The position numbers and the translations under genes were made by a program. The notes beneath the pieces were generated by a model. It was given only the letters and a program-made list of their open reading frames with translations, ran no database searches and was not told the origin of the DNA. This document shows, piece after piece, positions 24,029-34,517 of a stretch of DNA of 64,000 nucleotides (positions within the stretch are counted from its first letter, which is position 1; the number at the start of each line of letters is the position of its first letter). The stretch comes from Siminovitchia fordii DSM 16014 = CIP 108821 (GTDB lineage Bacteria > Bacillota > Bacilli > Bacillales > Bacillaceae_C). The stretch covers positions 220,968 to 284,967 of the forward strand of contig NZ_KB894687.1 of NCBI RefSeq assembly GCF_000374565.1, written 5' to 3'.

Positions 24029-24930
24029 TGGATTCCCTCCTTTGTTTCCTTCACATATTATTTCCAAAAAAAGATTGACAAACACAAGAATTAATTACCA
24101 TTGAAGATGGAGTGGACAGTACTGTCAAAAGGAAGTGTGGGAATCATTTATTTCCTAATACACTGGAGTCTTTTTTGCTTAAAAGGCTCTTAGCAAAATG
24201 TTTTCATTTTTTGATTAGCGAGCCTTGATTCCCCTTACTACAGGATAGATTTTTAACGGGTAGATCTGAGAGGGCTTTCTTTTATTTTGTCTGCATGGTA
24301 TGATAAAAGGAATGCTTTTTCGAATAAACTTGAAATATCAAAGATGAAATAAATTACATGGCGTTCTTGATTAAATAATTAAGAACTTAATCACACTGGA
24401 TCGACTACGGAGTCGTAAGGATGTATGAGAGGTAGGGCATACGTCGTTTAGGTTTTAAAATAAAAGAATTTTATCGCGGCAATTTATCTTGAGATATATA
24501 GTAATAACAAGTTTTAACAGATTCGTGAAGTATTAGGCACCTTAAGGGGTGCTTTTTATTTTTGAATAAACAACATGGTACGTTGGGAAAAATCATAAAA
24601 TAAGAGAAGGAAAAATTTTGCATGATTAGGATGGAGCTAACCTAATAATCATGCAAAATGGCTTTGGAATTAATTTGATATGTACTAAATCGCCAATACA
24701 ACAATACAAAGATTCACGAAATAAAACCCACGTCAAGTCAGCTATTAGTTCCAAGTATGATTAGGAGATCATACAATCGTTTTTCGAAACCGTAAAGAAT
24801 GAACACTCTTCAGAAATTGGAGTCCCGGCAACACTACATCAATCGCTATTGATAGTGGATAGCCGGAAAGGAAAATAAAAAATATGCGCTCAACAAAGGC
24901 ATTTGTGGGAACTGCTGATTAAAAAGTTGA
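24029..24930. other. Non-coding, decayed stretch with hairpins
   Basis: No gene can be supported here. Structures seen: a terminator-like stem at 24537-24557 (GCACC / GGTGC plus TTTTTA) and a 14-base perfect inverted repeat at 24615-24628 / 24646-24659 (ATTTTGCATGATTA) around a 17-base loop. The hairpin has no transposase beside it. Confidence 0.5.
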
Positions 24931-32460: not shown

Positions 32461-33372
32461 TTATTGAGATGAAGAATGGCTAGGATGGTTCTGTTCTTCT
32501 TGGCTATCTTTGATAACGATTAAGACCCCAAAGAGAATTAAAACAGAACCTATCCAAAAGGTTATACTAATCGTTTCACCTAGTATTAACCATCCTAATA
32601 ATGTTCCAACAACGGGTTGAAAGAAAAAGAAAACTCCCCCACTAGAAGCATTTAGCATCTGTAATCCACGATTCCATAATAGAAATGCGATAGATGTCGA
32701 TATTACACCCAAATACATTAATCCTCCCCAAATGGTGGGATTAATGAGATCATTTAAATCAATTTGTGGCAGCTTTGGTATAACAAAAGGAGTTAGAACA
32801 ACAACAGCGATTAAAGCAGCATGGGCCGTAACAACAATTTGCGAATAATCACTAGGCAGACGCTTTATGAGTACGGACATTAACGCCCATGTTAATGCTG
32901 CTATAATAAGTGATACTCCACCAAGCGTGCTAGACACATTAATATCATCAATTCCAACAATGATAATTACACCAATAGTGGCTAAACTAACTGAAATAGC
33001 CTTCTTTGAACTTAAACGTTCTTTAAGGATTAAACTAGCAAACAAAACCATAAAGGCTGGTGTTGTAGATGTTATAATAGCCCCCATTTGTGCAGTGGAA
33101 AGCATTGTACCTGTTTCTTGAGTAACAATGGAAATGACGTACCCAATAATTGCAATAGCAATTATAATGCCAAAGTGATGTCTTTTAATTCGCCAATTCT
33201 GTTTAGTGACCAGTCCAATTATAACTAATGCAACAAGTGCTATTAGATATCGCATCCATACAAGTTCTAATGGTGGTATGACTGCCACTACTACTTTAAC
33301 GACAACATACATACCTCCCCAGATACTCGAAGCTAATATTAAATATAAGGAACCAATAAGTGTATTTTTCAT
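32461..33372 (-). CDS. EamA/DMT family transporter
   Basis: 303 residues, ten membrane segments in two EamA repeats (LASSIWGGMYVVVKVV at the start, AALTWALMSVLIKRLP opening the second, FFFQPVVGTLLGWLILGE near the end). Probably an exporter or importer of a small metabolite; the substrate is unknown. GGAGGG lies seven bases before the ATG. The 158-base leader holds an 18-codon reading frame and a hairpin whose downstream arm can also pair with this binding site, so expression is likely controlled by translational attenuation. Confidence 0.88.
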   Translation of the reverse strand: MKNTLIGSLYLILASSIWGGMYVVVKVVVAVIPPLELVWMRYLIALVALVIIGLVTKQNWRIKRHHFGIIIAIAIIGYVISIVTQETGTMLSTAQMGAIITSTTPAFMVLFASLILKERLSSKKAISVSLATIGVIIIVGIDDINVSSTLGGVSLIIAALTWALMSVLIKRLPSDYSQIVVTAHAALIAVVVLTPFVIPKLPQIDLNDLINPTIWGGLMYLGVISTSIAFLLWNRGLQMLNASSGGVFFFFQPVVGTLLGWLILGETISITFWIGSVLILFGVLIVIKDSQEEQNHPSHSSSQ

Positions 33373-33408
33373 TTTTGTACCCTCCGTTTTTTTAGGCTTG
33401 TATATGCC

Positions 33409-33446
33409 TTAACGGAGAGAAGCAGCCGTTCAATTCTCTCCGTTAA
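33409..33446 (-). promoter_or_regulatory. Attenuator hairpin in the EamA leader
   Basis: A perfect 13-base inverted repeat (TTAACGGAGAGAA) has arms 33434-33446 and 33409-33421 on the minus strand. The upstream arm begins inside the leader-peptide stop codon. The downstream arm contains CTCCGTT, which can pair with AACGGAG of the EamA ribosome binding site (33380-33388). The arm can thus pair with either partner. There is no T-run, so it is not a terminator. Confidence 0.65.
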
Positions 33447-33499
33447 AAGCGGGAGAGTGCTACTGGTACATCATTTTCAAATAAAGGTGCATAATACAT
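33443..33499 (-). CDS. Leader peptide of the EamA transporter gene (18 aa)
   Basis: MYYAPLFENDVPVALSRF, with AAGGAG nine bases before ATG 33499 and the TAA at 33443-33445 overlapping the hairpin's first arm. The close fit of binding site, stop and hairpin is what is seen in inducible resistance genes with ribosome-stalling leaders. The inducer is unknown. Confidence 0.6.
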   Translation of the reverse strand: MYYAPLFENDVPVALSRF

Positions 33500-33536
33500 A
33501 CAATTCAACTCCTTATAAGAAATAAATAACAAATTT

Positions 33537-33564
33537 AGCATAGCAAATATAATTTCTAATGCAA
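33537..33564 (-). promoter_or_regulatory. Candidate sigma-A promoter of the EamA gene
   Basis: TTGCAT (33559-33564) and TATGCT (33537-33542) on the minus strand with a 16-base spacer. Transcription from about 33530 would include the leader peptide and hairpin. Confidence 0.55.
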
Positions 33565-33863
33565 GTTTCCGTATTTCGTATAACTTTCACTGATAAATAT
33601 CAACCTTTTAAATTAATAATCACCTAAAGGTTTTTTCACCATCTAGAATTAAGAAATTTGTCCAACTTAAGGGTTGGGATGTTCTCATCAATGTATTAGA
33701 TTCTCTTAATAAGGAACATCATACATTAAAAAAACATGTACCATTATCCTTATCAAATAGGATCAATCATTGGTAAACAAATATATAAGTCGCTTCTAAA
33801 AATACCTAAATAAAAAATCTACCTTTCTCTTGAATACAGAAATTAGGAAAAAGGAGTGTACAT

Positions 33864-34517
33864 ATGAAAAATACCCGTAATTTACTGAGAAACCTCAAAT
33901 CTTTGGAAGGGCCATTTCCAAAATTTGATCCTGCAAATGTTCCTTCAAATCCAAATGAGCTCTTTCAAGAATGGTTTCATATTGCTATAAAAAATGGTGT
34001 TCATGAACCTCATTCCATGACACTTTCTACCATCAATTGTATTGGGCAACCTGATGCAAGAGTACTCATTTTAAAAGATATGGATGAAGACGGATGGTAC
34101 TTTGCTTCTAGCTCAAACAGTATGAAGGGACAACAATTGAAGATGAATCCAAATGTTTCTTTAACTTTTTATTGGTCTTTGATTGGTAGGCAAGTTCGAA
34201 TACGAGGAGCGTCAATGAGGGGAGGAAAGGAGCAAAGTGCAAAGGATTTTTTAGAAAGAGGGGAAATTGCACGAGCCATTGCTCTTCTAGGAAAACAAAG
34301 TAAAGTTTTGCCTGACAGTAAAGTCTTAGAGGAATCATTTATACAGCAAATTGAGCGGATGAAAAATGAACCTAATATAGTAGACCCTAATTGGTGCTTA
34401 TATAAAGTAAGAGCAAGTGAGGTGGAATTTTGGCAAGGAGATAGAGAAAGAAAGCATATACGCTTATTGTATCGAATGGAAAATAACACATGGATCAAAG
34501 AACTTCTGTGGCCATAG
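33864..34517 (+). CDS. pdxH: Pyridoxamine 5'-phosphate oxidase-like FMN protein (PdxH type)
   Basis: 217 residues. Seen in order: the N-terminal ANVPSNPNELFQEWFHIAI, the substrate and FMN segments STINCIGQPDARVLILKDMD and SSNSMKGQQLKMNP, SLTFYWSLIGRQVRIRGASM, and a C-terminal EFWQGDRERKHIRLLYR. The C-terminal part deviates from the RLH motif of true PdxH, reading RKHIRLLYR, so the exact substrate is uncertain. Bacillus makes PLP mainly with PdxST, so this accessory copy suggests salvage or a related FMN reaction. AAAGGAG precedes the ATG. 33565-33863 holds no gene. Confidence 0.82.
   Translation: MKNTRNLLRNLKSLEGPFPKFDPANVPSNPNELFQEWFHIAIKNGVHEPHSMTLSTINCIGQPDARVLILKDMDEDGWYFASSSNSMKGQQLKMNPNVSLTFYWSLIGRQVRIRGASMRGGKEQSAKDFLERGEIARAIALLGKQSKVLPDSKVLEESFIQQIERMKNEPNIVDPNWCLYKVRASEVEFWQGDRERKHIRLLYRMENNTWIKELLWP

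Follow-up and report, generated by a model that had tools for sequence, protein, structure and literature searches.

Does the short open reading frame that precedes an exporter gene allow the ribosome to decide when the exporter is made and, if so, in response to what? The question is raised by a locus of Siminovitchia fordii DSM 16014, lying in a window of 64,000 nt of contig NZ_KB894687.1 (the whole stretch of DNA that was analysed; all positions below are window positions). Here, the gene for an EamA-family exporter of the drug/metabolite transporter superfamily (303 aa; 32461..33372, minus strand, ATG at 33372) is preceded on the same strand by a leader ORF of 18 codons, MYYAPLFENDVPVALSRF (33443..33499, ATG at 33499, stop codon TAA at 33445-33443), equipped with a Shine-Dalgarno sequence of its own (AAGGAG, 33509..33514, minus strand). 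The opposite flank is occupied by a divergent pyridoxamine-phosphate-oxidase-like gene (33864-34517). A perfect hairpin of 13 bp begins at the leader stop codon, formed by TTAACGGAGAGAA (33446-33434) with TTCTCTCCGTTAA (33421-33409), and the CTCCGTT within its second arm is also complementary to AACGGAG (33388-33382), inside the EamA ribosome-binding site. An initial annotation of this DNA had pointed out these elements and read them as translational attenuation: the ORF, the 13-bp hairpin and the CTCCGTT/AACGGAG alternative were each recovered at the place it had assigned to them, and the recurrence of leader and arms in relatives far exceeds chance. Folding of the 166-nt leader region is stronger than that of its dinucleotide shuffles (z -2.79), with 2 of 200 shuffles equally good.

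Signals acting on transcription are another matter. A promoter-like pair ahead of the leader had also been claimed and was not recovered, as a scan of 33300-33700 gives two promoter-like sites on the plus strand and zero on the minus strand. An exact TATAAT occurs within 110 nt upstream of the leader in 29 of 81 sequences (the window and its close relatives, defined below), compared to a mean of 14.9 in base shuffles; this moderate enrichment makes at best a weak case for a promoter upstream of the leader. The same scan found no terminator-like site in the window's leader, and transcription attenuation was rejected on that basis. Neither does the window's leader have an Rfam match at gathering score; at E up to 10 there are three poor matches, none of them to a bacterial regulatory RNA. 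Elsewhere in the window, at 24371-24457 on the minus strand, Rfam recognises a BsrC small RNA (score 70.6 bits, gathering score 38).

Conservation of the leader peptide

Conservation of the leader upstream of EamA homologues had been set beforehand as the test of the attenuation reading, with absence from relatives as the refuting outcome, and the opposite was found. The close set comprises 81 sequences, namely the window and the best 80 of at least 518 confirmed EamA loci (63-92% identical), and was gathered by EamA protein search alone, the leader playing no part in selection. All 81 carry the short leader ORF, mostly of 16-18 codons, with a core of E-x-D-V-P and a stop codon mostly 59-81 nt before EamA. 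Around this core the sequence reads LFE-x-DVP, with LYE and RFE as variants in one sequence each: Glu, Asp, Val and Pro are each present in 81 of 81, Phe in 80 and Asn in 74, while the tail after Pro is variable. Codon changes are synonymous at Glu (GAA 78 and GAG 3), Asp (GAT 78 and GAC 3) and Pro (CCA 48, CCT 32 and CCG 1). The frame or stop of the leader is shifted in three sequences (L012, L056 and L084); in L012, a single-base difference towards the end of the leader, some 130 nt upstream of EamA, changes the reading frame, and the ORF runs for 30 codons through the hairpins.

More distant relatives were represented by the upstream regions of 60 weaker EamA matches (41-59% identity), a subset picked by hand from the rows of the EamA search, mostly from rows without a locus. 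A leader with E-x-D-[VQHT]-P and an early stop precedes 40 of these 60 (V in 26, Q in 11, H in 2, T in 1), with E, D and P invariant because the search pattern required them; no leader with this pattern was found in the other 20. The RNA arms of the 40 distant leaders often differ. As a yardstick for false positives, a near-identical search of the regions preceding 30 genes of a different EamA family returned two true leaders and one spurious four-residue match. Judged from these sequence comparisons, the peptide core E-x-D-V/Q-P is conserved in addition to the hairpins, and is kept at the level of amino acids.

Alternative pairing of the leader RNA

Both pairings claimed in the initial annotation stand, but the scheme was incomplete: an extra arm lies inside the leader, so that four arms form three helices, 1:2, 2:3 and 3:4. 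Arm 1, AGTAGCACTCTCC (33452..33464), follows directly on the Pro codon; arm 2, TTAACGGAGAGAA plus GGCTGCT (33421..33446), can pair with arm 1 (the predicted OFF state) or with arm 3 (ON); arm 3, TTCTCTCCGTTAAGGC (33406..33421), can pair with arm 2 (ON) or with arm 4 (OFF); and arm 4, AGCCTAAAAAAACGGAGG (33381..33398), contains the EamA ribosome-binding site, all four on the minus strand. Each pairing was evaluated by a permutation test, in which the duplex energy of an arm with its own partner is compared to that with partners from other sequences. Within the close set, own partners pair better than permuted ones in helix 1:2 (-14.9 vs -11.7 kcal/mol), helix 2:3 (-16.1 vs -15.1) and helix 3:4 (-13.2 vs -12.7), with 0 of 2000 permutations as good for each; the margins for 2:3 and 3:4 are small, and the arm sequences there hardly vary. 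The arm boundary for L012, L056 and L084 was set by hand in this test. Column-wise covariation in the close set shows no excess of double changes in 3:4 (2 cells vs 2.8 shuffled) and a modest excess in 2:3 (12 vs 5.9, with 4 of 500 shuffles as high).

Removal of near-duplicates (14 of the 40 distant leaders) left a non-redundant distant set of 26; for one sequence, L187, arm 4 was wrongly chosen by the script. Arm 2 sequences in distant relatives differ widely (TTAACGGAGA, GGCGAGGGC and CCGGCGAGGG are examples). Own partners here give -12.9 against -9.4 kcal/mol for 1:2, -19.7 against -14.0 for 2:3 and -15.2 against -11.8 for 3:4, and 0 of 5000 permutations reach the own value in any of the three. 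The own partner thus gains 3.4 to 5.8 kcal/mol in helices 1:2, 2:3 and 3:4, against 0.8 in the control pairing 1:4 and 0.2 in the control pairing 2:4. The latter is no better than permuted (1347 of 5000 as good), whilst 1:4 also beats its permutations, if by a smaller margin (51 of 5000 as good at -8.3 vs -7.5 in the 26, and 1 of 5000 at -9.2 vs -8.3 in all 40), meaning that the permutation test is not wholly specific. Partner matching in the distant set is the strongest evidence for the putative switch.

A candidate translational attenuator

The comparative evidence supports the reading as translational attenuation, with arm 1 completing the 1:2 / 2:3 / 3:4 scheme. We consider it highly probable, from sequence comparison and modelling, that leader and EamA together form an erm-type translational attenuator, in which arrest depends on the nascent peptide, falls between D-V and Pro, and answers to an inducer whose existence we infer along with the arrest itself and its exact codon. 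The locus has the features of an erm-type switch: a short ORF with its own Shine-Dalgarno sequence, three mutually exclusive helices with the Shine-Dalgarno sequence of the regulated gene in arm 4, and a predicted stall that would cover arm 1 and free arm 2. In the OFF state, the leader would be translated without delay, 1:2 and 3:4 would pair, and the EamA ribosome-binding site would be hidden. In the ON state, the ribosome would arrest just before Pro is added, when Val occupies the P site (replaced in some relatives by Gln, His or Thr) and the Pro codon stands in the A site; the nascent F-E-x-D-V chain and the inducer would together slow the addition of Pro. A ribosome stalled at Val-Pro would largely cover arm 1, leaving arm 2 free for arm 3 and the EamA binding site exposed; 2:3 would then be the hairpin of the ON state, and 3:4 that of the OFF state.

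The spacing of the arms can be compared directly with this scheme. Counted from the first base of the Pro codon, the median extent of arm 1 is +4 to +17 (79 of 81, two sequences being left out), and arm 2 of helix 2:3 begins at +16 to +20 (5-95%), and at +15 or beyond in 81 of 81. Exposure of the EamA binding site was modelled by sliding a ribosome footprint along the leader under partition-function folding, with sequences aligned on the peptide core; of the distant leaders, 37 of 40 were used, the three without a recognised binding site being dropped. In both sets, mean predicted exposure peaks when the P site holds the codon preceding Pro, rising from 0.062 in the free leader to 0.254 (n=81) and from 0.166 to 0.423 (n=37). 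This exposure is partial, exceeding 0.5 at that position in only 5 of 81 and 11 of 37. With Pro in the P site, changes in predicted exposure larger than 0.1 are gains in 52 of 81 and 24 of 37 sequences and losses in 3 and 4, respectively. The window leader itself has a plateau from -2 to +3 (0.12-0.26), with its maximum at +2 and no peak at -1. A swap control, in which intergenic parts are exchanged, keeps about half of the exposure gain (0.142 vs 0.257), and the size of the modelled gain is therefore not to be trusted. The modelled stall position agrees with the conserved peptide core, though the core was used for alignment.

A further helix may be involved. The Val-Pro codons read GTACC in 76 of 81 sequences, 47 of which have a complementary GGTAC-like stretch after the binding site, so that stalling may in addition disrupt a closing helix; the window's minimum-energy fold shows one of this kind. 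The predicted stall falls at residue 11-12 of a 16-18-codon leader, and a nascent chain of about 10-12 residues would lie inside the exit tunnel. So short a peptide makes a membrane or force signal of the SecM/MifM type unlikely; the remaining options are a small molecule and impaired addition of Pro. Force-sensing arrest needs a chain long enough to leave the tunnel, about 30 residues, and was set low as a candidate.

Distribution and genomic contexts of the leader

EamA proteins at E up to 1e-60 are present in 122 of 398 genomes of the window's class, and a covariance model of the leader region gives 48 matches in 46 of the 398. Thirty covariance-model loci were opened, including the window's own: the leader is followed by an EamA gene of the window's type in 28 and by another EamA protein in 2. 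Three of these 28 genes are partial or split (L094, L104 and L108); the leaders of L104 and L108 lack the Glu and stand upstream of degenerate EamA genes, and that of L094 is intact though its EamA match is split. Six low-scoring matches, also opened, comprised one true leader (in genome G190), four chance matches and one relic in the window's own genome. This last, outside the window (L217, at G000:C3:6930-7048), is a second, leader-like sequence, MFFAPLFENDEPSFLK..., without EamA behind it.

Pattern searches extend this range. A stricter leader pattern, applied to 398 genomes of the phylum, is found in four (the window, G014, G400 and G548), two of them outside the window's class, and in all four the leader precedes EamA (by eye for the latter three); a looser pattern matches 78 of the 398 class genomes, as raw pattern matches. 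Viral contigs contain eight matches to the leader pattern, each in a frame that is open about 20 codons upstream, with EamA beside 0 of 8 at E up to 1e-5; without EamA and in longer open frames, they were taken as chance. Relatives of EamA occur in 11 plasmid records, two of which were opened: Priestia pBM500 has the leader, and the Selenomonas plasmid EamA (46.7% identical) has no such leader visible by eye.

In two genomes (L107 and L117, equivalent to L223 and L224), the leader core also stands before a distinct EamA protein, with about 23% identity to the first. This second EamA family has matches in 64 of 398 genomes, and the leader stands before 2 of 30 opened loci and is absent from the other 28. 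In L117, arms 2 and 3 are apparently missing, and the leader's own codons, CCTTCG, could form a direct helix with CGGAGG of the binding site (by eye), in what seems to be a reduced, two-arm version of the switch.

What the ribosome might sense

The presence of the same putative switch before related exporters in many related bacteria suggests that the ribosome there probably senses some small molecule. Two kinds of inducer are live options, one being a substrate of EamA export and the other an antibiotic under which Pro is added more slowly. That the inducer is a small toxic compound or metabolite exported by EamA itself is a guess, weakly held, with a little under an even chance of being right. 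That it is a ribosomal antibiotic is also a weakly held guess, and somewhat more probably wrong than right; the switch would be the same, induction of EamA would form part of resistance, and orthosomycins or erythromycin would be the candidates. Orthosomycins, among them evernimicin and avilamycin, are large molecules; the ribosome arrest that they cause depends on the incoming tRNA together with the last two nascent residues, and they act on a regulatory ORF in several bacteria. The orthosomycin study of Mangano et al. 2022 reportedly deals with a regulatory ORF. The EamA leader may be that orthosomycin-sensing ORF or a similar one, as the predicted Pro in the A site and the invariant Asp before the P-site residue would fit such a rule. 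Further in favour of an antibiotic is the patchy distribution, in 46 of 398 class genomes by covariance model and with the leader in one of the two plasmid records opened. However, the conserved Glu and Phe further up exceed the needs of such a rule, and orthosomycins are large for an EamA exporter. A review (PMC13410324) cites an orthosomycin-sensing study and places XDK and XP among strong arrest motifs for erythromycin. The core E-x-D-V/Q-P contains X-Pro and has no Arg/Lys-x-Arg/Lys, the motif of macrolide-type arrest peptides, and the chloramphenicol preference for Ala/Ser/Thr given there does not fit it.

Amino-acid starvation of the trp/his type, in which a scarce charged tRNA (proline, for example) would stall the ribosome, draws on the fact that the predicted stall site has one Pro codon, which is invariant; yet there is no run of regulatory codons, and the residues before Pro are conserved, which a starvation sensor would have no need of, making this explanation improbable. 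A ligand-binding riboswitch or protein-binding site with an incidental ORF would account for the strong alternative hairpins, but the peptide core is kept by synonymous changes while the arms change, and the window's leader has only the three poor Rfam matches described above; we regard this as very improbable. Equally hard to credit is that the leader, short but conserved and provided with a binding site of its own, encodes a functional small protein whose hairpins merely insulate or terminate transcription, as the window's leader lacks a terminator-like site, the tail after Pro varies, the leader lies directly upstream of EamA in the loci checked except for the own-genome relic, and the arms match the EamA binding site.

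Relation to known regulatory systems

Most ribosome-stalling leader peptides have been described singly, each for one drug or gene. Four-arm arrangements are known in detail from the erm attenuators; in the chloramphenicol attenuators of cat-86 and cmlA, a ribosome stalled on the leader frees the Shine-Dalgarno sequence, and cmlA is an exporter; TnaC and SpeFL are conserved nascent peptides that sense a small molecule and control a metabolic or transport gene, mainly via transcription termination. The attenuator proposed here would resemble cat-86 and cmlA in the freeing of the Shine-Dalgarno sequence by a stalled ribosome and, for cmlA, in having an exporter as its target, but the leader peptides are different. 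It would share a conserved nascent peptide and small-molecule sensing with TnaC and SpeFL, whilst differing from their reliance on transcription termination. Its closest likeness is to ermC and relatives, in a short leader ORF, alternative hairpins and a Shine-Dalgarno sequence exposed by a stalled ribosome; unlike erm, the target is an EamA exporter rather than an rRNA methylase, the core E-x-D-V/Q-P has no Arg/Lys-x-Arg/Lys, and that core is common to much of a transporter clade. For ermC, the review describes a ribosome stalled on a short leader that remodels alternative hairpins, exposing the Shine-Dalgarno sequence of the regulated gene (PMC13410324). With Val in the P site, the EamA leader would place Asp on the E-site codon, in contrast to the Ala/Ser/Thr preferred by chloramphenicol (PMC13410324).

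Other leaders share parts of this architecture. The uORFC-6-1 motif upstream of hflX is likewise a conserved short leader, mainly of Bacillales, with RNA structure downstream of its start, but it has an Arg-Leu-Arg motif and a suggested action on transcription (PMC8632094). The ykkC subtype 2d RNAs also lie before EamA-annotated transporters as cis-regulatory RNAs, and differ in being a riboswitch class, its ligand undetermined in that paper (PMC7266159). A search of the open-access literature (open-licence papers) turned up no account of such an EamA leader, its arrest motif or its target. The kind of mechanism is thus known from erm and cat; the arrest motif and the EamA target would be new, unless the orthosomycin-sensing ORF proves to be the same, as it might. 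In its widest form, the proposal is that E-x-D-(V/Q)-P represents a nascent-peptide sensor not described before, an arrest code for one small molecule, widespread in the window's class and found outside it too, that switches on EamA, persists as the arms evolve, and was also acquired by a second EamA exporter only distantly related to the first; we hold the chances of this to be evenly balanced. One short putative arrest core and its four-arm switch can be traced through many Bacillota before EamA exporters, even as the arms change. Identifying the inducer would point to the substrate of the exporter, extend the list of molecules sensed by the ribosome and provide a natural biosensor, and unannotated ORFs of 16-18 codons can in this way show how a large and little-understood family of transporters is regulated.

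The exporter and its neighbourhood

The EamA protein scores 160.7 bits against Pfam PF00892 over two stretches (E 3.1e-47), above the cut-off of 28.2. Against models of named EamA exporters (YddG, YedA, the O-acetylserine/cysteine exporter and RarD), all seven matching NCBIfam models score below the equivalog cut-off, and a search for a solved-structure relative by sequence gave none at E up to 0.01. An anti-phage role was rejected, PADLOC giving no match.

Neighbouring genes offer hints of function, not proof. A survey of 110 loci, within about 1.5 kb and with the same genome possibly counted twice in places, found a gene for a CsaA-like tRNA-binding protein adjoining the leader-EamA unit in 11; on plasmid pBM500, too, a CsaA-like gene lies upstream of the unit. 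An AraC-type regulator is among the neighbours in 8 of the 110 loci by BLAST and in 12 by clustering. A cysteine-synthase-like gene lies downstream of EamA in 4 of the 110, and the one tested passes the cysK cut-off, a possible hint of a cysteine-related substrate in that lineage. In two loci (L009 and L011), a fragment of a second EamA gene, a relative of the L107/L117 type, lies just upstream of the leader, and looks as if one unit had replaced another.
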